Assembly (NCBI RefSeq): GCF_040838345.1
Contig: NZ_JBAKFF010000001.1
Span: 1 to 64,000, forward strand
Direction: 5' to 3'
Length of the DNA: 64,000 nucleotides
From: Spiribacter sp. 1M189
GTDB lineage: Bacteria > Pseudomonadota > Gammaproteobacteria > Nitrococcales > Nitrococcaceae
Part shown: piece by piece, positions 3,603 through 25,294 of the stretch
Numbering within the stretch: the first letter of the stretch is position 1
Layout: each line of letters starts with the position of its first letter
Program-made: the position numbers and the translations under genes
Notes under the pieces: model-generated
Database searches by the model: none
Told to the model about the DNA's origin: nothing
What the model saw: the letters and a program-made list of their open reading frames with translations, nothing else

Positions 3603-4412
3603 TCATAGTGCAGTCTCGTTTTCTCCGGTTTCCTCGAGTGCAGCCTCCTTAGCGGTCTGGGATGAGCGGCTCTTAGCGAGCAGGCCGGCTTTCCGCTTCT
3701 CCTTGAGCCGGTAGCTCTCGCCTTTGATGTTCACCGTGGTGGCGTGATGCAGCAACCGATCCAGGATGGCAGTGGCCATCACCGGATCTCCGAAGACCTC
3801 ACCCCAGTCGGCGAAGCCCTTGTTCGAGGTCAGGATCAGGCTCGCCCTCTCGTATCGCCGGGCAACCAGCCGGAAGAACAGGCTCGCCTCGTCACGGCTC
3901 ATGGGCAGATAGCCCAGCTCATCGAGGATGAGGACCTTCGGGTAGGTCAGTTGCTTGAGCACCCGCTCGAGCTTTTGTTCAGCGCTCGCCTTGCGCAGCT
4001 TGGTGAGGAGCTCATCGAGGGTGAGGAACACCACCCGGTGACCGGCCTGTGCCGCCTTGATGCCGAGCGCGATGGCCAGATGCGTCTTACCAACGCCGGG
4101 CGGACCCAGGAACACGGCGTTGTTCCCGCGCTCGACGAAGGCTAGCGAGGCCAGTTCCCGGATGACCTTCCGGTCGATGCTGGGCTGGAAGCTGAAGTCG
4201 AAGGCCTCCAGGGTGTGCATCGCCGGGAAGCGTGCCTGACGCAGTCGCGTCTCCACGCCCCGGACGTTCCGGGACTGCCACTCGGCCTTGAGCGCTTCGG
4301 TGAGGAACGCCCGGTAGTCGAGATCCCGCTTGGCGGCCTGTTCGCAGATCGTATCGAGCTGCTCATCGAGCCCTTGGAGCTTCAACCGCTCCAGCAGTAT
4401 GCCGAGCTCCAT
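3603..4412 (-). CDS. istB: IS21-family helper ATPase IstB
   Basis: A 269-residue AAA+ ATPase that assembles on target DNA and activates the IstA transposase. The Walker A motif GPPGVGKTHLA and Walker B LILDELGYLP are intact, as is the family-typical SLILTSN sensor region. Length is normal for IstB. The ATG at 4412 overlaps the istA stop (TGATG). A GTG one codon upstream would give one extra residue. Confidence 0.93.
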   Translation of the reverse strand: MELGILLERLKLQGLDEQLDTICEQAAKRDLDYRAFLTEALKAEWQSRNVRGVETRLRQARFPAMHTLEAFDFSFQPSIDRKVIRELASLAFVERGNNAVFLGPPGVGKTHLAIALGIKAAQAGHRVVFLTLDELLTKLRKASAEQKLERVLKQLTYPKVLILDELGYLPMSRDEASLFFRLVARRYERASLILTSNKGFADWGEVFGDPVMATAILDRLLHHATTVNIKGESYRLKEKRKAGLLAKSRSSQTAKEAALEETGENETAL

Positions 4413-5584
4413 CACAGCACTTCCGTGTAGTAACCGAGGTCACGGGTCTGGACCCGTACCTGGTCCCAGAGGCAAGCGTGATGCTCGGCGACCGTGACGA
4501 AGCGCTCGCCGTCAGTGGCAAGCCGGTGGTGGGCGACGGGATGGCCCTCAAGATGACGGATCTCGATCTCGCCATCCAACGTCTGGCGGATGCTGACCCG
4601 CTGCTGGGCCAATTGCCCCGGCACGCTATAGCGCACGCCATGCAGAGAGACGTAGGCGTCCAGGCTCACCGCGCGGGTGTAGTGGTAGGCCGTATCGTAG
4701 CGGCTACGCGGCAGCGGCCCGAGCGACTCGCGCTCCCGTGCGAAGCGGACCGGGACCGACTCGCCCAGCTCCCTTAGCGTGCGCTGGTTAGCCACCGTCT
4801 GGCACCAGGCGGTGAGATAGGCGTTGAGGTGATCGAAGCTGTCGAACGCCGGATCACCGGCAAGGGCGTTCTCACTGATGTAACGCACCATCCGCTCGAC
4901 CTTACCCTTGGTCTTTGCCCGTCGAGGCCGGCATGCGCGGGGCGTGAAGCCGTAGTGGACGCCGAGTTCGCGGAAGCGCGGGTTGAAGCGGGGTCGGCCA
5001 TCACGCCAGTCGAGCACGGCCGAGGCCTGGTTATCGACCAGTACACTGCTCGGGACACCGCCGAAGGCCTCGAGCGCAGCGATGATCACCTCGTAGGTAT
5101 GGTTGGCATCCAGCGAGGGCATCCCCATGGCATGCAGATGACGGGAATACCCCAACACGTTCACCCCGACATAGACCTTCTGGCGCACATCGCCGATCAG
5201 CAACCGCCGCTCGCACCAGTCATGCTGCATCTGCTGACCGGGCGGCGTCTCGTAGCGGACAACGCCGGCGTCCGGACGCAGTACGCGCTTGGGCTGGATG
5301 TAGTCACGCAACTGCGTGCTGCCCCCGGTATACCCAGCCTTGCGGATATCTTGCAGGATCACCTCGGCGTTCCAGATCCCCTTACGGAGCATCCCGTCGA
5401 TCTGATCGATGAACGGGTCCAACTTCCGCGGCCGTCGCTTTGGTCGCTTCGGCGGCTCACTGCCGCGCTTTAGCGCTCGACTCACGGTCTTCGGGGTAAC
5501 CCCGAGCTCCGCGGCAATGTCCTTGATATATACGCCCTGTCTGTATCTCTCGGTTATCATCAAATAGTCCTCTCGGGTCATCAT
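4412..5584 (-). CDS. istA: IS21-family transposase IstA
   Basis: A 390-residue DDE transposase. It starts with a helix-turn-helix (IKDIAAELGVTPKTVSRALK) for terminal repeat binding. The rve-type catalytic core shows QHDW, LVDN and KGKVERMV, supplying the D, D and E. The frame stays open upstream into the inverted repeat, but the tandem ATGs at 5584/5581 (MMTREDYLMI) fit the family start. Both IS genes are intact, so the element may still be active. Confidence 0.92.
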   Translation of the reverse strand: MMTREDYLMITERYRQGVYIKDIAAELGVTPKTVSRALKRGSEPPKRPKRRPRKLDPFIDQIDGMLRKGIWNAEVILQDIRKAGYTGGSTQLRDYIQPKRVLRPDAGVVRYETPPGQQMQHDWCERRLLIGDVRQKVYVGVNVLGYSRHLHAMGMPSLDANHTYEVIIAALEAFGGVPSSVLVDNQASAVLDWRDGRPRFNPRFRELGVHYGFTPRACRPRRAKTKGKVERMVRYISENALAGDPAFDSFDHLNAYLTAWCQTVANQRTLRELGESVPVRFARERESLGPLPRSRYDTAYHYTRAVSLDAYVSLHGVRYSVPGQLAQQRVSIRQTLDGEIEIRHLEGHPVAHHRLATDGERFVTVAEHHACLWDQVRVQTRDLGYYTEVL

Positions 5585-5646
5585 CCCCGGTCTCCAAGCG
5601 GCCAAACTTGCAAGACCGAGGATCGTTGGTCCGAGGGGACATCTCA

Positions 5647-5903
5647 AACCGGCGATCAGAGGACTCTACTGGGCGGCGCCAACAATGTGGACACAGGTGG
5701 AATAGAAGTCTGCGTCAAACACTCTCTCAAAGAGACTCGCTAACGCACTGTCTCGCATGCAGAGTCTGAGCGCTTCTCGCTATCAATCACTGTGTGATTC
5801 GTGCTGGCCACTGCGAGATATACGCTTTGTCCATCGTGTTAACACGGTCATATGCACGGTGGCGGTTGCACGATTTCAAACGGTTAGGTACGGTCGCAAA
5901 TCA
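5647..5903. other. Unassigned region between IS21 end and RTX remnant
   Basis: About 257 bp with no recognisable gene. The frame running into the RTX remnant is open from 5794, but its first ~36 residues resemble no RTX sequence. A perfect 12-bp palindrome CGTGTTAACACG lies at 5835-5846. It may be the original flank of the 97-codon ORF or debris from rearrangement. Confidence 0.4.
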
Positions 5904-6318
5904 TACGGGTGGTGCTGGTGCTGACTCGCTGACTGGTGGTACTGGCGATGATGACTTCGTCATTGGCGACGGTGACACTGGTATCACCGTTGCTACGGCA
6001 GACACCATCGCTGATTTCGGTACTGGTGCTAACGAGCTTGGGCTCGGAACAGCTGGTGACGCCACCGCAGGTACGGGTAACTACGTTGAGGCAGTTGCAG
6101 CTGTTCAAGACTTTGCAGCAGCGTTGACAGCAGCGAACACGGCGTTGAGCACGTTGTCAGATACCACCAACTCGAATACCGAAATCTATGCTTTCGAGTT
6201 CGATGCCAACAACGGTTATCTTTTTGAAGACACGGACGTCGATGGCGCTGCCGACCAAGTGGTAGTGCTCACTGGCATCAACGACACTGGAATCGAGGCT
6301 GCGGATATCATCGCCTAA
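5904..6318 (+). pseudogene. 3' remnant of an RTX protein gene
   Basis: RTX coding begins abruptly at about 5904 with repeat GGAGADSLTGGTGDDDF and continues to a type I secretion-like C-terminus ending VVLTGINDTGIEAADIIA. The first ~35 bases are identical to a stretch starting near 176 in the first RTX gene, so the junction lies within a repeat. The upstream frame is open back to an ATG at 5794, but that part is not RTX-like and no ribosome-binding site is obvious. It looks like the tail of a gene whose 5' portion was lost by recombination. Confidence 0.7.
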
Positions 6319-6351
6319 CCGACTCACCCTCACCTGAGGAACGGTCCTGAG

Positions 6352-6386
6352 AAAGCCCTCGTCACCTAGTGGCGGGGGCTTTTCTT
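6352..6386 (+). terminator. Rho-independent terminator, shared RTX 3' cassette copy B
   Basis: Same 12-bp stem and T-run as at 2112-2146, in the same position relative to the stop codon. Confidence 0.85.
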
Positions 6387-6405
6387 ATGCTGCCAAGCCA
6401 ATCCG

Positions 6406-6614: not shown

Positions 6615-7317
6615 TTAGGGGAATTCGCCAACGCCAGCACGTGCGATCATTGCACGTGCATAGCGCAGCTCACGTGATATCAGTGTGGCGACGGTGTTTT
6701 TCTGCGCACGAGCATCTACTGCTTCGTTGGCCATGCGCTTCTCGCTCGGTTTTGTGGTCAAACCGACTGTGTCTGCGAGCTTGGCGTTGCTCATGCGCTT
6801 GCCACGCTGTGAGTGTTTGAGCTCATAGAGTGTCAGCGCACGTTCCAGGCGTTTGACGAGCACGGGCTTTGAGAGGTGATACAGAGCCTGGCTGTGCTCT
6901 GCGGGGTCAACGCGCTTGCCGTGCTCTGATGGCAGGTGCTTTTTCAGCAGACGATTGATGCTCTTGTCCACATAGCGGCGCTGCTGTGGCAGGGGGACTG
7001 CAATCACAAGCCAGTCGTCGTGCTCTGCATATTCAGCCGCACGCTCACCGTCCTCCACTATGTGTGTCCATACACCACGCAGCGGCTCAGCGGAGAGATA
7101 GACGCCGCGCTCCTCGCCGTTCGTGTTAACACGATTGCGCCACCAGTCGCAGAAGGCTCGGTATCTGTCGCCGTCATAGCGCACGTCTCCAAAGTCCTCA
7201 TACACCTTCAGCATCTCAGGCTGCGCTTTGAAGGAATCCCTGCTTGTAGAAGCTCGTTAACGCTGCTGCTGCTCACAGAGCTTGGCGTATTCCTCGTTCA
7301 GCGTCAGCGCCAGCCAC
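6615..7317 (-). pseudogene. Broken copy of the tryptophan-rich hypothetical gene
   Basis: Aligns to codons ~31-264 of the gene at 2375-3169 but lacks the 5' end, which is replaced by unrelated sequence beyond 7317. It also has an in-frame nonsense change: Gln51 CAA is TAA here (minus strand, 7257-7259). The remaining open frame from an internal ATG at 7214 (199 codons) is nearly identical to the intact copy apart from a few changes (GDWGDV to EDFGDV, GKFP to GEFP). The lack of further decay suggests recent duplication. Confidence 0.82.
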
Positions 7318-7703
7318 CTGCGCTGCTCAAAAATTAGTGTGAGATCTTGGTCGGCACGAAATTTCCTGCTATGTAAGTCGCACAGCCGTCGTCGAAGGAT
7401 CACAAATCAGGGCCCAGGATCAGCCGATTCCGGTGGTGGGCCACTTGAAGTCGAACGAGCAGCGCAAATTCGCCCTCTCAGACAACAGGTTTTTGCCGCC
7501 CTCGGCGGATGGCTGAGAGCATTAGAGAGAAACCCTGAACGGGACGGTCAAGTGGCGCGCTAACGCCCATCGACGGCAGCGTCCGTGCTGAAGCACGCCT
7601 GAACAGCCTGACGCGTATGGCCGTGCTAATCTTGGATTGCACTGAGAGGGCGATACGCTTGAAGCTGCGCCGGTGATGAATGGGGGACCAGCTGAAGAAC
7701 GCC
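7318..7703. other. Unassigned intergenic region
   Basis: About 386 bp between the pseudogene and the methyltransferase gene, with no convincing coding frame on either strand. The piece around 7427-7470 (GATTCCGGTGGTGGGCCACT) is reminiscent of terminal repeats of some IS21-type elements and may be an IS scar; this is a weak impression. Confidence 0.35.
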
Positions 7704-8438
7704 ATGGAATACGACGAAATCTTTGAAGCGCGTGGATCAGCCTACGACCATGCCATGCGCGCTCTTCCCCGGGCGAGGGCCGCTGAGTTCCGCCAACTGA
7801 TCAGCCGCCTGGCGCCGCAGACCGGAGAAACCTTGGCCGATGTTCCAGCCGGCGGCGGCTACATGGCGGGTTATCTACCCGCTGGCGTGGTACATGCGCC
7901 ATATGAGCCTTGTGTGAGCTTCACTAACCATGGCGACACCACCCGCGGCGGGGGACGCCCTCTGCTCCCTCTGCCCTGGAAACAGGATAGCGTGGATGCC
8001 GTTGCAAGCCTCGCGGGCGTGCATCATATAACGGATAAAGCGCCGTTTTTCTCAGAACTCCGGCGCGTTGTTCACGCGCAAGGCCGATTAGGACTGTCAG
8101 ACGTTGCCGCAGGGTCGGCCGTGGCGCTTTTCCTCGATGAGTTTGTTGGGGCGCACAACACGACTGGGCACGAGGGCGTATATCTCGATCAGACTACCGT
8201 TCCGTCGCTTCGACAAGCGGGCTGGGAAGTGACGTCGGATGAGATCGTGGAATTTCACTGGGTCTTTGACTCCAAGATACAGGCCGGCGAATTCGGCCAT
8301 GATCTATTCGGCTTGGTGGGCGTCACGCCCTCGGCATTTGCCGACGCAATGGAAGCAAGGTTGGGGTTTGATCCGCTACCGGACGGTGGTGTCGGCCTGC
8401 GCTGGGCCCTTCGCACTATCATCGCAACCCCGGTCTAG
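7704..8438 (+). CDS. Class I SAM-dependent methyltransferase
   Basis: About 244 residues, resembling the UbiE/Methyltransferase_11 group. A motif I-like segment (LADVPAGGGYMAGYL) supplies the SAM loop. A post-motif segment (PLPWKQDSVDAVASLAGVHHI) and FFSELRRVVHAQGRLGLSDV fit motifs II-III of that group. The ATG at 7704 is preferred on protein grounds; an in-frame ATG at 7680 adds eight residues, and neither has a strong ribosome-binding site. It ends two bases before the ATP-grasp gene, so translation is probably coupled. Substrate unknown; the neighbours suggest modification of a small molecule or peptide. Confidence 0.75.
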   Translation: MEYDEIFEARGSAYDHAMRALPRARAAEFRQLISRLAPQTGETLADVPAGGGYMAGYLPAGVVHAPYEPCVSFTNHGDTTRGGGRPLLPLPWKQDSVDAVASLAGVHHITDKAPFFSELRRVVHAQGRLGLSDVAAGSAVALFLDEFVGAHNTTGHEGVYLDQTTVPSLRQAGWEVTSDEIVEFHWVFDSKIQAGEFGHDLFGLVGVTPSAFADAMEARLGFDPLPDGGVGLRWALRTIIATPV

Positions 8439-8440
8439 GG

Positions 8441-10360
8441 ATGGAAAAACCGGGACGTTTTCTCTCGGCAGGGCGTGGGCATGCGTTTCCGGGTTACCTC
8501 GCGGGGCTGAGAAGCGGTTGTCTGCGCCTCCCCCTCACGGTGGGGAGCCTCCGTGCCTTTCCAGGAGAGTGGGCGGCGATGCCTGCCGTGGCCTCCTCGG
8601 CACACGGGTGGCTGGAGCAACTCAGTGAGACGGGGCCCCAGTGGAGCGCGATTCCAGCGCTTGATTCGGCAAGAGGCATAGGACGCTGGATAGTATTCTG
8701 GAATACCGTACTCCAGCGATATGCCGGCCTACCCATGCCGGAAGATGGCGTCGTACGGGTCGGTGCGCAGGCCTCCGACCAATTCAGCCGGCTTTTTTTG
8801 TTTCTCCCCATACCGACCGGCTCCCCCAACCCATCGCTTCAAGCCATTCAGTTGGTGTTATGGCATATGCGATCGGTCCTGGATTCGGGTGCCGCCGCGT
8901 CCGCGGATGAACTTGCCGAGCGTTTCGCATCAACAGTGGAAACACTCTCGAAGTGTCCGCCACGTGGACGAAACACTGGGCGGTTCATCGAGGCTGCCTC
9001 CGAAAAAGGAGTGCCCTTCACAGCGCTGGGTGGTGACTTGCTCCGCCTGGGACAAGGCCGGCATATGCGCTATATCGACAGCACGTTCACGGATAAGACC
9101 CCCCGAATAGGCGCCAGGATGGCGCGCCAGAAAACGCTTTCGAATCGAGTACTCCGGGATGCAGGACTGCCGGTGGCCCGGCAGCGCGTTGTCCAGGATC
9201 CGGCGCAGGCTTGTGCGGCGGCAAAGGCGCTTGGATTTCCGGTGGTCATCAAGCCGATGGATCAAGATGGTGGCCGTGGCGTGGTTGCCGATCTGAGAGA
9301 TGAGGAGGAACTGAAAGCGGCCTTTCCGGTGGCGGCTGCGCATGGTGACGCAGTGCTCATAGAGCCACATTGCCCGGGCCGTGACTATCGTCTGGTCGTC
9401 TTTAATGGCGAGCTGTTCTGGGCGCTTGAACGTGTCCCCGGCGGGGTGACCGGAGACGGGGTGCAAACGGTCCGTCAGCTCGTCGACGCACTCAATGCCG
9501 AGCCCACCCGCAGGCCGGTCAGAGGTGCCCCGCTGTACCCCTTAACATGGGATAAGACGGCGCAGGAGTTGCTCGCAAGGCAGGGACTCGACGGGAACGC
9601 GATCCCGGATCATGGAGCGTTCGTCCAACTCCGCCGAACCGCCAGCGTCACCGCAGGCGGGACGCCCGTTGCCGTTCCGGTAGAGGCCGTACACCCCGAT
9701 AACCGAGACCTTGCGGTTGGTGCTGCACGGGCATTGAATCTGGATTTGGCGGGAGTGGATGTGCTGACCGATGACATAGAGACCTCCTGGCGGGTTGATG
9801 GAGGCTTGATATGCGAGGTCAATGCGCAGCCGAGTCTGGGCGCAACCACCGGTCCTCATCTGTACACCGAGATTCTCGACGGACTGATCGAAGGTAACGG
9901 TCGGATTCCGATCCATGTGCTCGTTGGGCCCAGTGCGCACTCCCCCGTGCCGGAAATATGTCTGCAGGCGCTGCGGGCCGATGGACTGGCCGTTGGGCTG
10001 GCATCCTCCGCTGGGGCATGGGTGGGAGGTCATCAGCGGTCGATTGATGGATGCGGTAGCGCGATTGCCTCCCGTGCAGTCTTATGCGATCCGGAGGCGG
10101 AAGCCCTTCTGGTGGTCCTCCAGGACGACCACTTTCTTAGTAACGGCCTGCCGTTTGACCGATGCGATAGCGTGATCATCTGCGGGGTAAACATCGAGCC
10201 GAGCGCAGGACGGGCCGGTAATGATGTCTCAGTAATCCTGCGAGAGCTGCTCTCGCATCTGTTGCCGGCCTGTACCGGTACCGTACACACCCTCGCCGAT
10301 AGCGGCGTTGCCCCCCAGGATGTGCCGCGACTGCTAGGCTCGATCGGGAGACACGCGTAA
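8441..10360 (+). CDS. Cyanophycin-synthetase-like ATP-grasp ligase with Mur-domain remnant
   Basis: Up to 639 residues. The segment LRLGQGRHMRYIDSTFTDKT (about 201-220) and the following ATP-grasp region (VVIKPMDQDGGRGVV near 267, CEVNAQPSLGATTGPH near 460) match the glutathione-synthetase-like ATP-grasp part of cyanophycin synthetase CphA. After ~490 the protein still follows the start of the CphA Mur-ligase-like domain (GAWVGGHQRS, LCDPEAEALLVV, GLPFDRCD). The P-loop GTNGKTT is missing (VLVGPSAHSPVPEI instead) and the rest of the Mur domain is absent; CphA is near 870-900 residues. It probably forms one kind of amide bond only. A start at 8579 with an AGGAGAG site is an alternative to 8441. 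Confidence 0.75.
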   Translation: MEKPGRFLSAGRGHAFPGYLAGLRSGCLRLPLTVGSLRAFPGEWAAMPAVASSAHGWLEQLSETGPQWSAIPALDSARGIGRWIVFWNTVLQRYAGLPMPEDGVVRVGAQASDQFSRLFLFLPIPTGSPNPSLQAIQLVLWHMRSVLDSGAAASADELAERFASTVETLSKCPPRGRNTGRFIEAASEKGVPFTALGGDLLRLGQGRHMRYIDSTFTDKTPRIGARMARQKTLSNRVLRDAGLPVARQRVVQDPAQACAAAKALGFPVVIKPMDQDGGRGVVADLRDEEELKAAFPVAAAHGDAVLIEPHCPGRDYRLVVFNGELFWALERVPGGVTGDGVQTVRQLVDALNAEPTRRPVRGAPLYPLTWDKTAQELLARQGLDGNAIPDHGAFVQLRRTASVTAGGTPVAVPVEAVHPDNRDLAVGAARALNLDLAGVDVLTDDIETSWRVDGGLICEVNAQPSLGATTGPHLYTEILDGLIEGNGRIPIHVLVGPSAHSPVPEICLQALRADGLAVGLASSAGAWVGGHQRSIDGCGSAIASRAVLCDPEAEALLVVLQDDHFLSNGLPFDRCDSVIICGVNIEPSAGRAGNDVSVILRELLSHLLPACTGTVHTLADSGVAPQDVPRLLGSIGRHA

Positions 10361-10395
10361 TTTCTCATCAGAACGTGAGCATAGAGGAAAGCTTA

Positions 10396-11160
10396 ATGTC
10401 TACATCGGCTAAAACAAGTAGCAGAGACGCATACGATAAGAGTCCGTTCCGCTCAATTAAGCACAGCACCTACTTCCCTGTTTATGACCAGCTCCTGTCA
10501 CCGTACCAGAACCGGGACATCACGTTTGTCGAGGTTGGAGTCTTTGAGGGCGGATCGCTCTTCATGTGGCGGGAATTCTTTGGACCCCGGGCGAGAATCA
10601 TAGGTATCGATTTCAATCCAGAAGCGAAAAAATGGGAGGCTGACGGTTTTGAAATATTCGTTGGCTCTCAATCATCACCGGATTTTTGGGATGAATTTTT
10701 TTCTGAAGTGGGTGCGGTGGACATACTGCTGGATGATGGGGGGCATACGTATACCCAACAGATCATTACAACCGAAATGGGCCTTGATCATATCAAGGAT
10801 GGCGGAATGTTGATCGTGGAAGACACCCATACCTCCTATCTGGACGGTTTTGGAGACAAGAGCATATCCTTTATAAACTATTGCAAGCGATGGATCGACA
10901 GGGTCAACTCGCGATTCGGGTCATTCGTCAAAGAGCAGAAGGACAGGCGTGTCTGGTCGGTTGAAGTCTTTGAATCAATTGTCGCTTTCAAGGTGAACAG
11001 AGCTTTTTCACAGCAAGTATCCATGCCGACAGATAACGGCGGTAAGAGAGATTTTTCTAAGGACTTTCGAAACGCTGACCGTAAATTAGTCGAACGGGAT
11101 TCCGCACGGATTGAGAGAATTATCAAGCGGGGATTTGATATTTTTGGGGGCAATGCGTAA
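10396..11160 (+). CDS. TylF/MycE-like SAM-dependent O-methyltransferase
   Basis: A 254-residue class I methyltransferase. The SAM-binding motif is FVEVGVFEGGSLFMW, followed by IIGIDFNP (acidic residue for the ribose). ILLDDGGHTYTQQI carries the acidic and histidine residues that in MycE/TylF-type macrolide-sugar methyltransferases bind Mg2+ and act in catalysis, and IVEDTHTSY is equally typical. The ATG at 10396 follows AGAGGAAA; the GTG at 10375 has no site. It is 35 bp after the ATP-grasp gene on the same strand. The acceptor could be a sugar hydroxyl, judged by family only. Confidence 0.78.
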   Translation: MSTSAKTSSRDAYDKSPFRSIKHSTYFPVYDQLLSPYQNRDITFVEVGVFEGGSLFMWREFFGPRARIIGIDFNPEAKKWEADGFEIFVGSQSSPDFWDEFFSEVGAVDILLDDGGHTYTQQIITTEMGLDHIKDGGMLIVEDTHTSYLDGFGDKSISFINYCKRWIDRVNSRFGSFVKEQKDRRVWSVEVFESIVAFKVNRAFSQQVSMPTDNGGKRDFSKDFRNADRKLVERDSARIERIIKRGFDIFGGNA

Positions 11161-11290
11161 CGGACCTTATGCCCGCATCTGGCGTTGGATTTCGCCTGGT
11201 CTGGGTTAAGCGCATGTACGGCGAAAATCGTCGCCCGAGCTGGGCAGGACTAGACGCGTAGGACATTTTTGACTTCCTGATTTGACACCA

Positions 11291-11326
11291 AAAGAAAAGC
11301 CCCCGCCACTAAGTGACGAGGGCTTT
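11291..11326 (-). terminator. Rho-independent terminator, shared RTX 3' cassette copy C (inverted)
   Basis: Reverse complement of the hairpin at 2112 and 6352, with about 35 bp of matching sequence between it and the stop codon of the minus-strand RTX gene (11327-11362). It also faces the convergent methyltransferase gene. Confidence 0.85.
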
Positions 11327-11359
11327 CTCAGGACCGTTTCTCAGGTGAGGGGCCGTCGG

Positions 11360-14300
11360 TTACACAGGAGCATCGAAATCAGCGAGATTGGCAGCGCCAA
11401 TACCACTAAGGTCAACACCATTCGCGCTTGCCAACAGCTCGAGGGCCGCGTCTCCCTCGCCTGCATAGGTCACCGAGTACAATGACACATCACCTTCCGC
11501 AGAATCGTAATCTGTCGATGTCAAGAGGTAGATGATGTCGTCTGCTGCTTCGCCAGTGAATGCTTCCGCTTCATCCTCAGCGGCTATAGCATCAGAGACG
11601 TCAGCACTGCTGACAACGAGACCCGTATTGGTGCCAATCGCTCCACCATTTGCGAGGACCTCAAACAGGGATCCATCACCACGCAGCGCGGTTTGAGCGA
11701 TGTTATCCCCAGTCCCGAAGTCAAAGTCGATCACATCGTTACCGGCACCCAGAGTCAGGTCACCAGTGGCGATTGTATCTTCTCCATTCAGACTTTGTGT
11801 CGTTTCGAGGACGAATGTGTCAGCACCATCGCCACCAGAGAGCTGGTCGTTGCCAGCACCACCGGTGATCGTGTCATTGCCGCCGCCGCCTGTAAGGGCG
11901 TTGGCCTCACCATCGCCTGTCAGCGTGTCATCGCCCCCAGTGCCGATGATGTTTTCAACGTTACTCACCTCATCGGCACCGGCGTTCGTGTCGCCAACCG
12001 TCACTGTCGGGTCAGCTGCACTGAGGTCGAGGCTGATACCGGTATCACCAGCAGTGAGCGGAGAATCATCTGCAGCCACGAGGGCATCGGCGTAAGACAC
12101 CGTGTCGGAACCGTTGCCACCATCAATGGTGTCAGCGCCCGTACCGCCGGAGATGACGTTATCGCCAGACGAACCGACCAGGTAATCGGTACCAGCCGAG
12201 CCAATCAGGTTCTCGATGGAGGTGAGCGTGTCGATCACGTTCGGGGCGGCCTCCAGCGTGTCGAACAGGTATGTCGCCTGTCCCGAAGCCACCTCATTAG
12301 CGGCGTTAAGCCCCGAGATGAAGTTGCCCGTGGCTGTGTTGATGGCCCCGGCGGTGAGCGCACTGTCACTCAGGTTGATGACGGCCCCGATCGAATCCGC
12401 CGCCGAACCCTCGACCTCCTCAACGGTCATGCCAACCGCCGAGAAGGTGTCCGTTCCGGCGCCGCCATCGACAGCGTCGGCGCCCTGACCGCCGATGATG
12501 ACGTCGTCACCGGCGTTGCCGTTCAGCGTGTCGCCGCCAAGTCCGCCGTCGAGCGTGTCGTTGCCTTCACCACCGTTGACGATGTCGTTACCACCCTGTG
12601 CCGTGATGACGTCGTTACCGCCGTTCGCATTGACCAGGTCTGCGGCGCCGGTGCCCGTGAACGTATCCACGCCACTGCTGCCCGTGTAGACCATGCCGTT
12701 GGTCGTCATGTTACTCAGCGTGACGGTGACGGCGCCTGACGCGCCGCCCGCGTTGATCGAGCCAACGGTGTCGACCGCCCCCGTGGTCATCACGAAATCG
12801 CCGGCCCCCGTTATCGTCGCGCCGCTGAGTGTGGCACCGGCAGCACCCACGGTATCGAAGTCCACAGTATTCGTATCAGTGACGTCGACGGTAATGGCGC
12901 CGACGCTCGCGGCACCACTCAGTCCCGTTGTGAACGTGACATCCGAGTCTGCGGTGACGTTAAGGGTGCCGACATCGCCGGTCACGCCACTGAGGTCAGT
13001 AAGCGTGACGTCGTTTCCGGCGCTCTCACCCGCCGTGGTGATCGCGATGTTGCCGAGCGTGGCCGCGGTGACCGCACCGAGGGTGAAGCCCTGATCTGAA
13101 CGGTTCGTCACCGTGATGTTGCCGACTGACCCGGTAGCATTCGCCGTAACCGAGCCGATCCCGGAGGCGGCCCCTGGCTCCCCCGTCAGCGTCACATCGA
13201 TATCCCCGATACTCCCGCCAACGGCAGCGCTGGCTACCAGGTCGCCACCGTCAAACTCCTTGGCGGCGTTGACCGTGACGTTGCCGATGTTGCCTGATTC
13301 GGCCGTCACATTGCCGAGCGTGAAATCGGTCCCGCCATCACCGAGATCCACGGCGATCGGCCCGACGGAATTTGCATCAACCGTGCCGATGCTCGAACTA
13401 CCGAAATCACCTACCAGATCGACATCGATGCTCAGGCTCGCGGCGCCCGTCGCATTGACATCTCCCACGATGACGTCGGACCCGCCCGAGGCATCGATAC
13501 TCAAATCAGAAAGTGCGGCTGCTTCTGTGACCCCATCATCGCCAATATTACCGACTGTGATATTGCCTGAAGTACCCGAAAGCAGGATGGTCTCGAGGGC
13601 GGAGACGTCGGTGGTCGATATGCCGTTGGCAAGAGATACAGCACCCTGACCGGCATTCACCGTCAGGTCGGTCAGACCGGAGGCGTCGATGTCGGCGACC
13701 GTGAGATTGTCAGCGGATTCTGCCGCTGTGTTGAGCTGCAGCGTGGTCAGGTTCTCGTCTGCCACCAGGTCGGCGAAGCTGAGCGGACTCCCGCCGCCGA
13801 CATCCTCCCCATCGTCAGCATCGATGGTTAACGTGCCAATTTCCGTGGTGCTGAGATTGCCGTTGGTGAGCGCCACACCCGCGGCACCCGCATTGCTGTA
13901 TGTGACTGACGCAGCAGAGCCCTCAACCGCATTCAGGTTGATCGGATCGAGCGTCACATCACCATCACCGTCCTGCTGGACCGCAGTGCCGTCGGCGAGA
14001 CTATCGAGCGTTGCTTCACCTACGGCGTCGAGCTGAATGGTGTTGAGTCCCGTGGCGTTACTGGCATCAAACGTACCGCCGTCGATCTCCAGATCAGCGG
14101 TTTCGACGCCGGTGAGCGTCGGTGCAATGTCCACGCCGGTCCCGATAGTCGCCGCAATGGTGTCGTTTCCACTATTGCCCGTCACCGTGTCGTTGTCGTC
14201 GAGATTCCCGGCGAAATCGAAGACCGTGGCGCGCGTGCTGCCGGAGATCGTCTGATCTGCGGAGCCGAGGTTGAGTGTCAGGTCACCGGTCGCGAGCGAG

Positions 14301-16492
14301 GCGTCGATATTCGTATTCGTGAGCCCTGTGCCGCCACCGAGCGTTGAGTCCGCATCCCCCGTGAGGATCAGGTTAGCTCCGCTCGTGATGGCGTCGACGG
14401 CAACCTCGTCGCCGTTATCATCAAAGACCGTGGACAACTCAAGGTTCAGCGTCTCGACATCGGTGCTGACGTCGATTGCATTGACGGTCATGACACCAAC
14501 ACCACCAGCGATTGACTCAGTGTTGGTGACGGTAAGGTTGACTAAGTCGGCGCCGCCGGAGGCGTCAGCCAGGTTGATCGTGAGGTCACCGAATCCTGAG
14601 TCCCCACCGCGCGAGTCGGCAAGCTCGATGGCCTGACTGATGACATTGTCAAGCGTGAGGCTGTGCGCGTCAGCGAGCGAGTTCACCGTGACCTCAGACA
14701 GGCCGGCGTCCATCTTCGCCAGGTTTACGTTGTCTCCGGTGTTGGATGCGCTATCCACCGTGAGCGCTTCAAAACCCGTGATTCCGGCGTCGGCGAGATC
14801 AGCATCAAAGGTGTCGTCAGCGGCGGTGACCTGAAGCTCGTCTCCATCGCCATCCCCACCGTCGACAGTGACATTGGCACCCACGGCGACCGTAGACAGC
14901 GCGGCATCCAGATCAAGCGAGTCATTCCCGCTGCCGAGCTGGACATTCAGCGAGGCATTCGCAGCAATATTTGTGACATTTTCACCGAACTGAACAACAT
15001 CGCGGTTCTCGCCGGTGCGGATATCCACCGAGTCGCCGGTGGTGTCGAGATCAGTATCTCCGCCACCATTGGCATCGAGGGCATCGAACCCGGTGCTGCC
15101 CACATAAGTGAGACCAGCACCGGCGCCTGTGTTGACATTGCCAAACTGGAGATTGATCGTCGCGTTATTATCCGAGGCGTCGATTGTTGCGACGCTCGCC
15201 TCGAGATCGTTGATCACATTAAGGCTTTGCGTTCCGCCAATATCAAGTGTCCGAGCCTCACCATCAGAAGTAATCGCCGCCAGCTGGTTGAATGTGTCGC
15301 CGCCGGAATTGATATTGAGCGTCTCAAAACCATCGCCGTCACCAACGCCGCCGACATCCAGTGTAACGTTGTCTGCGGCGGCGACACTTGATGTCCGGCT
15401 GCTGATGCCCTCAAGCGCAACGTCAAGGCTGTCGTTAAAGCTATCGGTGAGCGTGGTGTCGAAGTTGGCCGTATAGGTGATGCCGTCGTGCAGACCCCTC
15501 AGGCCGATCGTGGCCTGATCACCGATGTTGGTCACCGTCAGATCATCACTGCCTGGACCACCGACAGACCAGATTTGCTCAACGCCGGTCACACCAATCG
15601 CATTGATGGTCTGCTCGTCGCCAGCCGTGCCGTTGTCATTGTCCGGCGCCGCGATGTTGAACACCTCGACGTTCGAAATGCTGGTCGCCCGGGAGTCCCC
15701 GGATACGCGGATCAGCTCGAGGGTGTCCCGACCACCGGCACCGTCGATTTCGGAGTCGTTGAGCGTCGCCGCCGTTGCCTCGAACGTGTCGTCGGCGACC
15801 GTCGGATTCGAATCACTCGGGGTGACGCCCTCGTTGCCGGAGGGCGTGATCACTGCCCCGCTCGTTGTCAGCGTGAACGTCTGCGCTTCAGGCGGCACAT
15901 CGTTCACGGTGACCGAGCTGGACTGATCGGCGACTTCAAGGGTGAGCGTTTCGGTCTCGGCGACGAGCGCATCCTCGGCGATATCCACCGTGACCACGGC
16001 TTTGCCGTCAGAGCCCACGGTGGTGGTGCCGCTCAGCTCACCGACCACGTCAGCTGCCTGCACACCGGAGATGGTGTAGCTGTAGGTGTTGCCGTTGGCG
16101 ACCTGATTGGCATCCTCCAGCGTGAAGGTCACCGACTGGCCCTCGTCGACCGAATCCGCGCTGGCGGTCAGGGTGAAGTCGGGGTTCAGCGGCGCCGGCG
16201 TCGTGTCGTTCACCGTCACGTCGGCGGACTGGCCTGCCACGGTGAGGGTCATCGTCTCGGTCTCGGCGAGCTTGGCGTCCTCAGCCACATCCACGGCGAT
16301 GCTTGCCTTGCCATCCGCATCGATCGTCACCGTGCCGGTCAGGGGGGTGTTGAGATCCGCACCCTGCACGCCAGTGATCTCGTAGGAGTAGGTCGTGCCC
16401 GCTGCGACGTTGACGGTCGCCAGGTTGAATATAACCGAGTCGCCCTCATCGACGGATTGAGCGCTCGTTGTGAGAGGAAAATTATGTAATTT
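11360..16492 (-). CDS. Giant RTX/S-layer-like protein, 5'-truncated
   Basis: More than 1700 codons remain open. The N-terminal part has tandem ~105-residue Calx-beta/Ig-like repeats (SADSVDEGQSVTFTL, and a partial first copy SAQSVDEGDSVIFNL). A long beta-rich Thr/Asp/Asn region then recalls RsaA-type S-layer proteins. RTX nonapeptides (GGNDVITAQGGNDIVNGG and others) and a type I secretion-like C-terminus (LSGIGAANLADFDAPV) follow. No start codon or ribosome-binding site exists: just upstream of the first partial repeat the frame meets a stop at 16493 in AT-rich sequence, next to the recombinase genes. The first available GTG (16369) lies inside a repeat. It is probably a silent or donor copy, unless joined to a 5' end elsewhere. 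Confidence 0.8.
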   Translation of the reverse strand, partial: KLHNFPLTTSAQSVDEGDSVIFNLATVNVAAGTTYSYEITGVQGADLNTPLTGTVTIDADGKASIAVDVAEDAKLAETETMTLTVAGQSADVTVNDTTPAPLNPDFTLTASADSVDEGQSVTFTLEDANQVANGNTYSYTISGVQAADVVGELSGTTTVGSDGKAVVTVDIAEDALVAETETLTLEVADQSSSVTVNDVPPEAQTFTLTTSGAVITPSGNEGVTPSDSNPTVADDTFEATAATLNDSEIDGAGGRDTLELIRVSGDSRATSISNVEVFNIAAPDNDNGTAGDEQTINAIGVTGVEQIWSVGGPGSDDLTVTNIGDQATIGLRGLHDGITYTANFDTTLTDSFNDSLDVALEGISSRTSSVAAADNVTLDVGGVGDGDGFETLNINSGGDTFNQLAAITSDGEARTLDIGGTQSLNVINDLEASVATIDASDNNATINLQFGNVNTGAGAGLTYVGSTGFDALDANGGGDTDLDTTGDSVDIRTGENRDVVQFGENVTNIAANASLNVQLGSGNDSLDLDAALSTVAVGANVTVDGGDGDGDELQVTAADDTFDADLADAGITGFEALTVDSASNTGDNVNLAKMDAGLSEVTVNSLADAHSLTLDNVISQAIELADSRGGDSGFGDLTINLADASGGADLVNLTVTNTESIAGGVGVMTVNAIDVSTDVETLNLELSTVFDDNGDEVAVDAITSGANLILTGDADSTLGGGTGLTNTNIDASLATGDLTLNLGSADQTISGSTRATVFDFAGNLDDNDTVTGNSGNDTIAATIGTGVDIAPTLTGVETADLEIDGGTFDASNATGLNTIQLDAVGEATLDSLADGTAVQQDGDGDVTLDPINLNAVEGSAASVTYSNAGAAGVALTNGNLSTTEIGTLTIDADDGEDVGGGSPLSFADLVADENLTTLQLNTAAESADNLTVADIDASGLTDLTVNAGQGAVSLANGISTTDVSALETILLSGTSGNITVGNIGDDGVTEAAALSDLSIDASGGSDVIVGDVNATGAASLSIDVDLVGDFGSSSIGTVDANSVGPIAVDLGDGGTDFTLGNVTAESGNIGNVTVNAAKEFDGGDLVASAAVGGSIGDIDVTLTGEPGAASGIGSVTANATGSVGNITVTNRSDQGFTLGAVTAATLGNIAITTAGESAGNDVTLTDLSGVTGDVGTLNVTADSDVTFTTGLSGAASVGAITVDVTDTNTVDFDTVGAAGATLSGATITGAGDFVMTTGAVDTVGSINAGGASGAVTVTLSNMTTNGMVYTGSSGVDTFTGTGAADLVNANGGNDVITAQGGNDIVNGGEGNDTLDGGLGGDTLNGNAGDDVIIGGQGADAVDGGAGTDTFSAVGMTVEEVEGSAADSIGAVINLSDSALTAGAINTATGNFISGLNAANEVASGQATYLFDTLEAAPNVIDTLTSIENLIGSAGTDYLVGSSGDNVISGGTGADTIDGGNGSDTVSYADALVAADDSPLTAGDTGISLDLSAADPTVTVGDTNAGADEVSNVENIIGTGGDDTLTGDGEANALTGGGGNDTITGGAGNDQLSGGDGADTFVLETTQSLNGEDTIATGDLTLGAGNDVIDFDFGTGDNIAQTALRGDGSLFEVLANGGAIGTNTGLVVSSADVSDAIAAEDEAEAFTGEAADDIIYLLTSTDYDSAEGDVSLYSVTYAGEGDAALELLASANGVDLSGIGAANLADFDAPV

Positions 16493-19192: not shown

Positions 19193-20476
19193 TTATGCGC
19201 CGTGGCCGGCGTCCGTCGAGTGCGATGTCAGGCCCTCCGCCCATGCCAGCTGCCGCGGCAGACACACCGACTGCAGGTCGTAGTTGGCGATGGCGAACGC
19301 CCGGGCCTGTTCACCCAGTTTTTCTCGCCGTGCGGGATCTTCGGCCAACAGACAGACCTCGCTTGCCAGTGCCTGTGGATCGAAGAAGTTAAACAACCGC
19401 CCCGTGACATCATGCTTAATCGCTTCCTGCAGCGGCTGGGTATCGCTCGCGACGATGCCGCATCCCGCGCTCATGGCCTCCAACAGGCTCCAGCTCAGGA
19501 CGAAGGGGTAGGTCAGATACACATGGACCGTGGAGAGCTGCAGCAAGGGGATGAAGTGCTCGTAGCGGATGTTGCCGAGGAAATGGACCCGCGCCCAGTC
19601 CTCATCGGGAATGCGGTTACGCACCTCGTCGATGAATACCTCCCGCCAGCTTTTTTCCCCGTACGTGTCAGGGTCGGGGCGGGCGCCATAGCTCACGCCA
19701 TCTCCGCCGACGATCAACACACGGGCGTTGGGCCGCCTTGCCAGGATCTCGGGGAGTGCCCGCATGAAAATGTGGTAACCGCGATAGGGCTCGAGGTTGC
19801 GGTTGACGAAGGTGATCACCTCGCTGCCCCGATCGAGCGCAATTTTCCCGCCATCCTGTCCCGTGATGGCCATCTGCACGTTGGGGTTGGGGGCCACGAC
19901 GTTGGTATCGATGCCGTCGTGAACCACGGTGATCCGCTCCCGGAAGCGCGGCGGGAAGGTGCTTGCCTGCCACTCGGTGGGGCTGATCCCGGCGTCTGCG
20001 GTCTCAAAATGCAGCAGGTTATTGAGATTCTTCAGGCGCAGCCGGCAGGCATCGCCTGGATCGTTCGTCGCGAACTCCGGATCGAACCCCGTGTCGGCGC
20101 CCCGCGGGTGATAGTAGAACTCGCAGTAAATGCCCAGCGCCGTCTCGGGCCACACCTCCTTCAGAAACAGGCTCTCGCCCCAGCCATGATGGGCAATGAT
20201 GGCGTCGGGACGATAGCCTGAATCCCGCATCTCCAGTGCTTTGCGGAAGGCTGCCTCGCCGCGGATGGTCTTGGTCTCGAAGTCGCTGACCCAGGGGTGG
20301 ACCTCCCGGCTGGTGCCGCGCGTCGGGCTGTAGCGGACAAGCTGGACTCCCTGCCATTCCGAGGCCTTGATGTCCCGCATGATCAGCGCCGTCACTTCAT
20401 GGCCCCGGGCGACCAGTGCCGGAGCCAGGTGCTTGAACTGACCGGGGAAGTTCTGGTGGACAAAGAGAAATCTCAT
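19193..20476 (-). CDS. GT4-family glycosyltransferase
   Basis: A 427-residue GT-B fold enzyme. The N-terminal Rossmann half begins MRFLFVHQNFPGQFKHLAPAL, typical of a large group of GT4 enzymes. The C-terminal half contains ITFVNRNLEPYRGYHIF, ARVLIVGGDGVSYG and the donor-binding segment SWSLLEAMSAGCGIVASDT with its conserved glutamate (EAMSAG). The ATG at 20476 fits the family start; the longer frame upstream is non-homologous. It transfers a sugar from a nucleotide donor, probably to a surface polysaccharide or glycoprotein given the rfb neighbours. It is divergent from rfbD. Confidence 0.88.
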   Translation of the reverse strand: MRFLFVHQNFPGQFKHLAPALVARGHEVTALIMRDIKASEWQGVQLVRYSPTRGTSREVHPWVSDFETKTIRGEAAFRKALEMRDSGYRPDAIIAHHGWGESLFLKEVWPETALGIYCEFYYHPRGADTGFDPEFATNDPGDACRLRLKNLNNLLHFETADAGISPTEWQASTFPPRFRERITVVHDGIDTNVVAPNPNVQMAITGQDGGKIALDRGSEVITFVNRNLEPYRGYHIFMRALPEILARRPNARVLIVGGDGVSYGARPDPDTYGEKSWREVFIDEVRNRIPDEDWARVHFLGNIRYEHFIPLLQLSTVHVYLTYPFVLSWSLLEAMSAGCGIVASDTQPLQEAIKHDVTGRLFNFFDPQALASEVCLLAEDPARREKLGEQARAFAIANYDLQSVCLPRQLAWAEGLTSHSTDAGHGA

Positions 20477-20555
20477 GATGTGATCCGCAGGAAATCGAGT
20501 TTGATGAGCCGGTCGGGGGCAGGTGATGCGGCTGTGTCCATTGCGCATGATGCGT

Positions 20556-23230: not shown

Positions 23231-23272
23231 TTAAAGGCCGCGCCGGTCAGCGCACTATCTGCGTCCGCGCGG
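23231..23272. terminator. Possible bidirectional terminator
   Basis: A perfect 8-bp inverted repeat GGCCGCGC/GCGCGGCC with a ~23-nt loop lies between the convergent DUF6447 gene and gmd, overlapping the last codons of gmd. There is no T-run, so this is weak. Confidence 0.3.
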
Positions 23273-24308
23273 CCTCTCGCAGATCCTCTTCAACCATCTC
23301 GGCGACAAGTTCCGGGAAAGTGGTCGTCGGCTGCCAGTCGAGCGCCTCATGCGCAAGGCTGGGGTCGCCGAGGAGCGTATCCACCTCACTGGGGCGGAAA
23401 TAGCGGGGATCGATACGCACAATAACCCGACGCTCGCCCGCCATTTCGGTGATGCCGACTTCCTCTACGCCGTCTCCCTGCCATTCAATGCCGAAGCCAG
23501 CCTCGGCTGCAGCAAGCTCGACGAATTCCCTAACCGAGTGCTGTTCACCAGTGGCAATGACATAGTCCTGCGGCTTGTCCTGCTGGAGCATCCGCCATTG
23601 CATCTCCACGTAGTCGCGGGCATGACCCCAATCCCGGCGGGCATCCAGATTGCCCAGGTAGAGGCAATCCTGCAGGCCGAGTTTGATTCGAGCGATGGCT
23701 CGGGTGACCTTGCGGGTCAGGAAGGTTTCGCCACGCCGCGGGCTCTCATGGTTGAAGAGAATGCCGTTGCAGGCAAAAAAGTCATAGGCCTCGCGGTAAT
23801 TCACTGTAATCCAGTAGGCATACAGCTTCGCGACCGCGTAAGGGCTTCTGGGGTGGAACGGGGTCGTCTCCTTCTGAGGGACCTCCTGGACAAGCCCGTA
23901 CAACTCTGATGAAGACGCCTGGTAGAAGCGACATTGATCACCCATGCCCAGGATTCTGATGGCCTCCAACAGGCGAAGGGTCCCCACCGCGTCGACATTG
24001 GCCGTGTATTCCGGTTCCTCGAATGAAACCGCGACGTGAGATTGCGCGGCGAGGTTGTAGACCTCATCAGGCTGTACCCGCTGCATGACCCGCATCAGGC
24101 TGCTGGAGTCGGTCAGATCGGCATAGTGCAGCGTGAAGCGCGGATCTTCCTCTTGAGGCTCCTCATGCAGGTGGTCAATGCGCGCCGTGTTGAAAAGCGA
24201 GGCGCGTCGTCGAATCCCATGCACCTCATAGCCTTTTTCCAGCAACAGCTCGGCAAGGTAGGCGCCATCCTGGCCGGTGACGCCGGTAATCAATGCGCGC
24301 TTCGTCAC
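23247..24308 (-). CDS. gmd: GDP-mannose 4,6-dehydratase
   Basis: A 353-residue extended SDR that converts GDP-mannose to GDP-4-keto-6-deoxymannose, the precursor of GDP-fucose, GDP-rhamnose and related sugars. [10 protein letters not shown] binds [12 protein letters not shown] and the [12 protein letters not shown] segment give the Ser-Tyr-Lys catalytic set, and [15 protein letters not shown] is the GMD-specific loop. The start codon is GTG and overlaps the stop of the upstream gene (GTGA). It forms a two-gene unit with the SDR at 24305. Confidence 0.94.
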
Positions 24309-25294
24309 GAGTGATCCTCTTGATTGGGCGAGTCCGAGAGCTTCTCAAGCTCTGACTCGGTCATTTCCTGAATGAATGTCTCAAAGCGGGTCTCGGCCTG
24401 CCAGCCTAGGGTTTGCCTCGCCCGACTGGCATCTCCGATCAGACGAGTGGGCTCCGTGGGGCGGAATAGATCCTCATCGATTACGACATGCTCGCGCCAG
24501 TCGAGATTGAGCAGACTGAATGCCGCCTCCAGCACGTCTTTCACCCGATGCAGTCGGCCGGTCGCCATGATGTAGTCCATTGGCTTGTCGTGTTGCAGCG
24601 AGGTCCACATGCCTCTGACGTAATCCGGCGCATAGCCCCAGTCGCGGGCGGCTTCGATATTGCCGAGGTGAAGGTTTTCTTGTTGTCCGAGCGAAATCGT
24701 CGCCGCGCCCCGGCAGATCTTCCGAGTGACAAAATCACCGCCACGACGAACCGACTCGTGGTTGTACAGAATCCCGTTGACGCCGAACAGCCCGTAAGCC
24801 TGCCGATAGATACGCACCATATGCGTCGAGAAGGTTTTCGCGGCGCCATAGGGGCTAATCGGCGCCAGGGGCGTGTTTTCGTTCTGCGGGGATTGGTCCG
24901 GATTGCCGAAGATTTCGGCTGAACTCGCATGGAAAAGCCGCGCATCTGGGCATACGCTGCGCATGGCTTCGAGTAGGCGAACTGTATTGCCCCCGATGGC
25001 CTCTGTCACGGCCCAGGGGTTATCGAAGCTCTTCGCGACATGAGAGGCAGCAGCGAGATGATAGATCTCGCGCGGCGCAACCTGCTCGAGCAAATCGTCT
25101 AGTCGCCCTTGATCGCCCAGTCCACCTGGATGCCAGACAATCGCGCTTTGTTGGCCCCCTGCTTTCGGGTTTTCGGTCGTCTCACGGGTTATCCCGTGCA
25201 CCTCGTAGCCCTTCTCAAGGAGCAGTTCGCAGAGGTAGCTCCCGTCCTGGCCGGCGGCACCGGTGACGATGGCGCGGCGCGATGAATCTCCCAA
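24305..25294 (-). CDS. GMD-like NAD-dependent epimerase/dehydratase
   Basis: A 329-residue extended SDR closely related to GDP-mannose 4,6-dehydratase. It keeps [26 protein letters not shown] (YxxxK) and [15 protein letters not shown]. It may be a second dehydratase acting on another nucleotide sugar, or it may supply the 4-reductase/epimerase step missing after GMD; residues visible here do not settle this. The only usable start is TTG at 25294, with GAGG upstream; an in-frame stop lies just before it. It comes first in a two-gene minus-strand operon with gmd. Confidence 0.82.

Follow-up and report, generated by a model that had tools for sequence, protein, structure and literature searches.

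We analyzed three genes of Spiribacter sp. 1M189 that lie in the 64,000-nucleotide stretch at positions 1 to 64,000 of contig NZ_JBAKFF010000001.1 (the window), in a host genome of 1.95 Mb that is 99.8% complete. The genes are uninterrupted, intact, and closely spaced on the plus strand: MT1, for a putative methyltransferase (7704..8438, with an ATG at 7704, a stop at 8438, and an earlier in-frame ATG at 7680); AG, for a 639-amino-acid ATP-grasp protein (8441..10360, with an ATG at 8441 and a stop at 10360); and MT3, for a second putative methyltransferase of 254 amino acids (10396..11160, with an ATG at 10396, a stop at 11160, a further in-frame GTG at 10375, and GAGGAAA shortly 5' of the ATG). 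The open reading frame (ORF) calls put 2 nt between MT1 and AG and 35 nt between AG and MT3, confirming the layout given in an earlier interpretation of this DNA from its letters alone (the sequence-only reading). A search for sigma-70 promoters found none, against 1.7 expected by chance, and PADLOC gave no match to a defence system.

AG consists of a CphA N-terminal part, an ATP-grasp domain, and part of a Mur domain, for which we set approximate boundaries at residues 1 to 170 (N), 171 to 475 (G), and 476 to 639 (M, a remnant). The NCBIfam model PRK14016 matched residues 176 to 583 with an E value of 5e-98 and 329 bits, the model cutoff being 877. Among solved structures, the best sequence match was to CphA1 (7lgm, 245 bits), compared to 144 and 143 bits for CphA2 (8fxh and 7ta5) and 87 bits for GshF; N-acetylglutaminylglutamine (NAGGN) synthetase (TIGR03103, E value of 7.5e-37) was among the next nearest ligase families. 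The predicted model of AG (pLDDT 92.9, pTM 0.90) has the CphA layout, and a Foldseek search with this model returned ten CphA1 chains on top (TMq 0.69 to 0.77) and then CphA2 7ta5. In the host genome, we found no full CphA, the matches being AG itself and one weak match of 30%, and no cyanophycinase, in keeping with the placement of AG outside cyanophycin metabolism in the sequence-only reading.

We compared active-site residues between 70 relatives that lack the Mur P-loop (P-loop-less rows) and 19 that have it (P-loop, or CphA1-type, rows), using TeCphA1 numbering and residue roles from the excerpted text of PMC9427784, transferred by motif and alignment. At the site of the Mur P-loop, G[TS][NK]G[KR][TS], AG has VGPSAHSP. 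It retains the G-domain residues for ATP, Mg, and acyl phosphate, with K231, K271, R317, D440, and E459 standing for K220, K261, R309, D431, and E450. These positions are kept throughout the 70 P-loop-less rows (K220, K261, R309, and D431 in 69 each, E450 in 67), as are R323 and N452 (68 each) and N394 (64). In contrast, R458, G456, and H267 are absent from all 70 rows, while the P-loop rows have them in 19, 19, and 16 of 19 cases, respectively. R458 of TeCphA1 binds the alpha-carboxylate of the incoming Asp, according to the same excerpts of PMC9427784; by motif and alignment, its position in AG is G467 (codon at 9839..9841, plus strand), and of the Asp-binding set R323/N394/R458, AG keeps the first as R331 and has S402 and G467 in place of the Asn and Arg. 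The signature of the P-loop-less family is the missing Mur P-loop together with EVNAQPQLG in place of EVNA-PG-R. The primer motif Cx19HxxEH occurs in none of 66 P-loop-less rows, and HxxEH in one; among CphA1-type rows, the full motif occurs in only 1 of 13 and HxxEH in 10 of 13. In a tree of 79 rows, all P-loop-less or CphA1 type and treed by a quick method, a single branch (SH-aLRT 99) split 66 P-loop-less rows from 13 CphA1-type rows, and the P-loop-less relatives of AG are, as this tree has them, one clade. The window AG sits on a long branch, and the tree does not place it firmly within the clade.

To sample AG relatives, we scanned 84,980 species genomes with an AG alignment as the query (the window AG alone returned no relative) and kept the best 80 of at least 261 confirmed relatives, a sample that leans to near ones. 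The gene at 61 of these 80 loci lacks the Mur P-loop, and that at 19 has it. In tblastn searches, 15 of the 61 P-loop-less loci and none of the 19 had an MT1 homolog (41 to 55% identical) no more than about 110 nt from AG and on its strand; this homolog lies upstream of AG in 14 cases and downstream in one (L095). In several loci, the MT1 stop and AG start (starts being estimated) overlap or are no more than 9 nt apart. At five more of the 61 loci, a member of another methyltransferase family (MTB) is found no more than 300 nt from AG on its strand, bringing those with either gene within 300 nt to 20 of 61, compared to 0 of 19. Fisher tests gave P values of 0.016 for MT1 and 0.002 for MT1 or MTB, on rows that are not independent and with the 19 P-loop rows coming mostly from other phyla. 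MTB is only remotely related to MT1: both are Methyltransf_11 proteins, and the window MT1 gave no match to two MTB members. Record names include Thauera, Halomonas, Pseudidiomarina, Methylophaga, Sphingomonadales, and Burkholderiales and, further, Pseudomonadota, Chlorobiota, Planctomycetota, Campylobacterota, picocyanobacteria, and phage-like contigs. Metagenome-assembled genomes are frequent among these records, and some names may be binning errors. MT1-AG is, on the sequence record, a recurring and conserved bacterial gene pair, which supports the earlier proposal of an amide-forming type of ATP-grasp gene in an operon with a methyltransferase.

Five viral contigs with AG carried no MT1, and there were also plasmid and phage hits. 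Three IMG/VR contigs with phage-like genes by eye (L152, at 7794-9491, L153, and L154) carry a CphA-like ATP-grasp gene (565 amino acids), near which there is a sulfotransferase-like gene, also by eye. A second AG-like gene is present in L096. Within the taxonomic family of the window (23 genomes, its own included), AG was found in two genomes, MT1 in one, and MT3 in two; the second AG match is an 872-amino-acid CphA-type frame (G006), and 1 of 14 genomes of the genus has AG. Because the three genes are nearly absent from these 23 genomes, the cassette is foreign to its sampled relatives. Among 369 genomes of the class, again including its own, MT1 and MT3 were each found in 7 and AG-like matches in 38, at a threshold (E value of 1e-20 or lower) that also counts distant ATP-grasp proteins.

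The genes next to AG differ from those next to CphA1. Directly upstream, we found a Methyltransf_11 gene in 15 of 46 scanned cases (47 found in 65 loci), compared to Peptidase_S51, the cyanophycinase family, in five of seven scanned CphA1-type cases (12 found in 13 loci). Directly downstream of AG, no family occurs more than twice (46 scanned of 48 found). A P450 homolog is present at 14 of the 61 P-loop-less loci, some of which also have TauD (confirmed by Pfam in one) or a small protein that we read as hotdog-like and that has no Pfam match. In three loci (L073, L086, and L097), genes for a chorismate-binding enzyme and a PaaK-like AMP ligase accompany MT1-AG, and one genome (G251) has the PaaK-like ligase, the chorismate-binding enzyme, and MT1, with AG on the opposite strand from MT1. 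In a Marivita locus (L117, 8709-9650), the gene for a FeeM N-acyl amino acid synthase ends at the AG start, which suggests N-acyl amino acids as the AG substrate there. Partners such as P450, TauD, chorismate enzymes, AMP ligases, and FeeM point to specialized small-molecule metabolism.

MT1 has 244 amino acids and a weak library match to Methyltransf_11 (26.7 bits, Pfam). It has the Rossmann-like fold and S-adenosylmethionine (SAM) motif of a class I SAM methyltransferase, with a pLDDT of 93.0 for the predicted model. An alignment of 12 members, the others being 40 to 52% identical to the window MT1, gave the family motif D46-x-P48-A-GG-x-Y53, an invariant H107-H108, and G155-H156-x-G158. Genome samples drawn without reference to AG yielded eight genomes with MT1 besides that of the window, and these MT1 proteins, 30 to 40% identical to the window MT1, are more distant from it than the AG-adjacent ones. 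Among those with no AG in the fetched stretch, a PaaK-like ligase lies near MT1 in three loci (L179 to L181; 4.7 kb away in L180), and a QueC-like enzyme is next to MT1 in L180 and L189, below the Pfam cutoff in the latter. MT1 may tend to adjoin a carboxylate-activating or adenylating enzyme, with AG as one such partner. Inspection by eye adds a second QueC-like gene and one QueD-like gene to the L180 locus (6772-8149 and 11520-14038), which has an MT1 homolog, a QueC-family gene, and a PaaK-like ligase and is a possible 7-deazapurine-like cluster. In L190, a 343-amino-acid gene overlapping MT1 looks ATP-grasp-like by eye; it had no Pfam or NCBIfam match and was not counted.

We found no conserved linkage of MT3 to MT1-AG. 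Its sole Pfam match is Methyltransf_24, and a query begun at codon 10408 matched the catalytic domain of MycE (3ssm) over residues 22 to 151 with an E value of 2e-15. No TylF-type model was matched, the TylF/MycF family of Pfam included. tblastn found no MT3 relative in 85 loci, and of 46 genes scanned immediately 3' of AG in relatives, only 1 belongs to Methyltransf_24, the broad family of MT3. The nearest relative seen (52%) is on a Niveispirillum plasmid where both MT1 and AG are absent from the 18.7 kb fetched, and the second MT3 of the window's taxonomic family matches at 33% over 131 residues only. The GC content, about 60 to 63% for AG and 50 to 52% for MT3, hints that MT3 is of other origin than AG. 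Most probably, MT3 encodes an unlinked methyltransferase and is the local downstream neighbor by chance. The three-gene pathway of the sequence-only reading is not supported by these data; when its proposed test of co-conservation was applied, the triple was not co-conserved in what was examined, and the MT1-AG pair was.

On balance, and by a small measure, we favor the view of MT1-AG as a two-enzyme unit, with its genes closely linked, that makes a small metabolite bearing a methyl group and an amide bond. In this view, AG would work as the CphA1 G domain does: a carboxylate would be phosphorylated with ATP and Mg, the acyl phosphate would be held by R317 (R309 in CphA1), and an amine would attack it to give the amide. 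The second (Mur) active site of AG would no longer function. The pocket where CphA1 takes the alpha-carboxylate of the incoming Asp would be rebuilt, so that acceptor and product would differ from those of cyanophycin synthesis. MT1 would methylate the substrate or the product, on oxygen or nitrogen. The family of AG, its kept ATP site, its absent Mur P-loop, its changed pocket, and its conserved linkage to MT1 can be read from the sequences; from them we infer which reactions take place, in what order, and with what product. The best explanation is that AG was retooled from cyanophycin synthesis as a ligase for a small methylated amide. More tentatively, and leaning slightly to the doubtful side, we propose that MT1-AG represents, in its smallest form of two genes, an amide pathway that is undescribed and independent of nonribosomal peptide synthetases (NRPS), built on an ATP-grasp clade that came from cyanophycin synthetase, lost the second site, had its acceptor pocket rebuilt, and works with many partners (MT1, MTB, P450/TauD, chorismate enzymes, and FeeM).

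Several observations weigh against the two-enzyme unit. AG often occurs without MT1 (46 of the 61 P-loop-less loci), and the loci surveyed for co-conservation are the best 80 of at least 261. Of the eight genomes with MT1 from samples drawn without reference to AG, G251 alone has AG within the region covered; in six, MT1 stands without AG in the fetched stretch, which in two of them is short (6.0 and 9.6 kb) where the contigs end, and that of G321 is cut by a contig end. No other biosynthetic gene was seen beside the window pair, which is surrounded by RTX and sugar genes. As for the pocket, the window AG carries Ser at N394, and around the R458 site, an Arg stands within 3 columns in 10 of the 70 P-loop-less rows and 10 of 70 have a gap there. 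GshF, which adds glycine, also lacks R458, according to the excerpts of PMC9427784; the loss of R458 therefore marks a changed acceptor site and not the identity of the acceptor, and alone it does not exclude an amino acid. H267, found in 16 of 19 CphA1-type rows and not in all, is a weaker sign, because P-loop proteins in many further loci have Gln there.

The surroundings of the cassette are rich in surface genes. Its convergent neighbor encodes a 1,669-amino-acid RTX calcium-binding repeat protein by Pfam (11360..16369, minus strand), with a paralogue toward the opposite contig end (C1:1939723-1943538). Next to that paralogue, at G000:C1:1930019-1938787 (L186), there are glycosyltransferase (GT), ABC-exporter-like, and methyltransferase genes, as judged by eye. 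The window has GT4/GT1 genes at 19193-20548, genes for GDP-mannose dehydratase and epimerase at 23247-25294, and three RTX genes in the neighborhood; if the contig is circular, the window seems to lie within one large surface island. Upstream of the cassette is an IS21-type transposase pair identified by ORFs and Pfam (3603..5647, minus strand), which we take to be istA/istB: the ORF at 4412-5647 carries rve and Mu-transpos_C_2 domains, and that at 3603-4415 is istB-like by eye. Adjoining this element is a C-terminal fragment of an RTX-type gene (5794..6318, plus strand), recognized by eye and by a shared tail and without a Pfam match, which is possibly a disrupted surface-protein gene. By repeat comparison, the RTX-gene tail with its terminator (6316..6396, plus strand) has an inverted copy at 11282-11362 (81 nt, 90%) and a further copy in the same direction at 2076-2160, and this near-identical tail of 81 to 85 nt, with a terminator, closes three RTX genes or fragments. 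The cassette is thus bracketed by inverted RTX gene ends, which may permit inversion or capture by recombination. Several loci suggested that the AG family as a whole is tied to RTX proteins or large surface proteins, an idea that was dropped as unsupported (12 of 61 P-loop-less compared to 2 of 13 CphA1-type loci, by our own composition rule).

The main rival to the two-enzyme unit draws on this setting: AG would use an amine to amidate a uronic (or other) acid of a surface glycan, and MT1 and MT3 would methylate sugars, in decoration of capsule, lipopolysaccharide (LPS), or an RTX glycan. The surface island of the window (GT4/GT1, GDP-mannose, and three RTX genes) and the by-eye GT and ABC-exporter-like set near the other contig end fit this, as do AG relatives that adjoin GT1 (L106) or GT2 (L074) genes or, by eye, rml-like genes (L098), or that are flanked by a TupA-like ATP-grasp gene, a sulfotransferase, or GDP-mannose dehydratase (one each of 46). 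MT3 relatives also occur near sugar genes (L185, annotated; L182, by eye), and an acceptor lacking an alpha-carboxylate would suit the loss of R458. However, large surface proteins are not enriched in the counts above, some MT1-AG pairs lie amid housekeeping genes (L077 and L082, by eye), and P450, TauD, chorismate, and AMP-ligase partners are ill suited to glycan decoration; we consider glycan decoration unlikely, though it deserves to be kept in view. A role of AG in polymerizing dipeptides such as beta-Asp-Arg in the manner of CphA2, or as another polyamide synthase, would account for its length and layout (629 to 642 amino acids for 7ta5 and 8fxh) and for the lack of a Mur P-loop, which CphA2 shares according to the excerpts of PMC9427784. 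This is highly improbable, given that the host genome yielded no CphA1 or cyanophycinase, AG is nearer CphA1 than CphA2 (245 compared to 144 bits), R458 and G456 are absent (the reference rows being CphA1 type and not CphA2), and the neighbors in relatives are often methyltransferases and not cyanophycin genes.

Graspetide ligases are not known to have the CphA layout of N and M parts, which AG retains, and this tells against a system in which AG would crosslink or extend the neighboring RTX protein or a peptide of ribosomal origin, with MT1 methylating it in a graspetide-like way. An ATP-grasp gene with a methyltransferase is a known graspetide arrangement (in the portion of PMC8939145 consulted), and RTX-like or type I secretion genes lie near some members (L072 and L089); however, the association with RTX or repeat proteins is not enriched, and the short ORFs near the window pair matched none near the 15 other MT1-AG loci. 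Short-ORF matches with E values below 1e-5 were confined to L073, L086, L097, and L101, with a few weak short ones elsewhere, in a search that could miss distant, very short, or divergent precursors, and we think a modified peptide improbable. The same slim prospect attaches to a compatible solute, in which MT1-AG would make a methylated dipeptide osmolyte by a logic akin to that of NAGGN amide: NAGGN synthetase counts among the ligase families that come next in similarity, and some members are named for salt-water genera (Halomonas, Pseudidiomarina, and Methylophaga), but of 14 genomes from the genus of the window, just one has AG, and other members are in Thauera and Sphingomonadales, which are not known to be halophilic. 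The sequence-only reading had itself raised the prospect of a decaying cphA, here with chance neighbors; the missing Mur P-loop and the lack of MT3 co-conservation would fit, but the frame is full length, the catalytic residues are kept, and the same losses run through the 70-row family, one clade in the tree of 79, making decay scarcely credible.

A search of the open-access literature, with subscription papers outside its scope, found, among the matches listed, no description of the P-loop-less AG family or of a CphA-like ligase paired with a methyltransferase; the listed papers on the beta-lactamase CphA, cyanophycin, and other topics included none with DUF4938. The AG clade appears to be a variant within the CphA-type ATP-grasp ligases that is not known from this literature. 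Similarity-based annotation is likely to label many P-loop-less CphA-like proteins as cyanophycin synthetase, and the residue signature sets apart a family that would be unable to make cyanophycin in the known way. It also offers a handle on small amide pathways outside the reach of polyketide synthase (PKS) and NRPS searches, and the two-gene MT1-AG form is compact enough for a single heterologous expression test.

Among known systems, GshF (3ln6/3ln7) and NAGGN synthetase (TIGR03103) are related small-substrate ATP-grasp ligases with domains other than those of AG. MycE (3ssm) shares its catalytic domain with MT3, which lacks the N-terminal part (254 compared to 419 amino acids) and has no macrolide genes in sight nearby. 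Graspetide systems resemble MT1-AG in having an ATP-grasp ligase in an operon with a methyltransferase, there of the isoaspartate type, but their ligase and methyltransferase families are others, and the short-ORF comparison found no precursor peptide for MT1-AG. CphA2 (7ta5 and 8fxh), a cyanobacterial recycler of beta-Asp-Arg according to excerpts of PMC9262961 and PMC10206079, is like AG in its length of about 630 amino acids and its Mur part without a P-loop, but scores lower against AG than CphA1 does in both sequence and fold. In genomes of the same class, a tandem CphA-like gene adjoins CphA1; like AG, it has R458 replaced and no P-loop in the part seen, but it reads NAGPGLLMH or NAGPSLLMH where the AG family has NAQPQLG, and it is apparently a third lineage, distinct from AG. 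In examples such as G129 and G245, NAGPGLLMH amounts to a change of R458 to Leu. CphA1 itself (7lgm, 7wae, and 7lg5) has the N, G, and M-like parts in the same order as AG and the same G-domain ATP, Mg, and acyl-phosphate residues. AG differs from it in lacking the Mur P-loop, R458, G456, and H267, and in its upstream partner, which is often a methyltransferase for the AG family and a cyanophycinase for CphA1.

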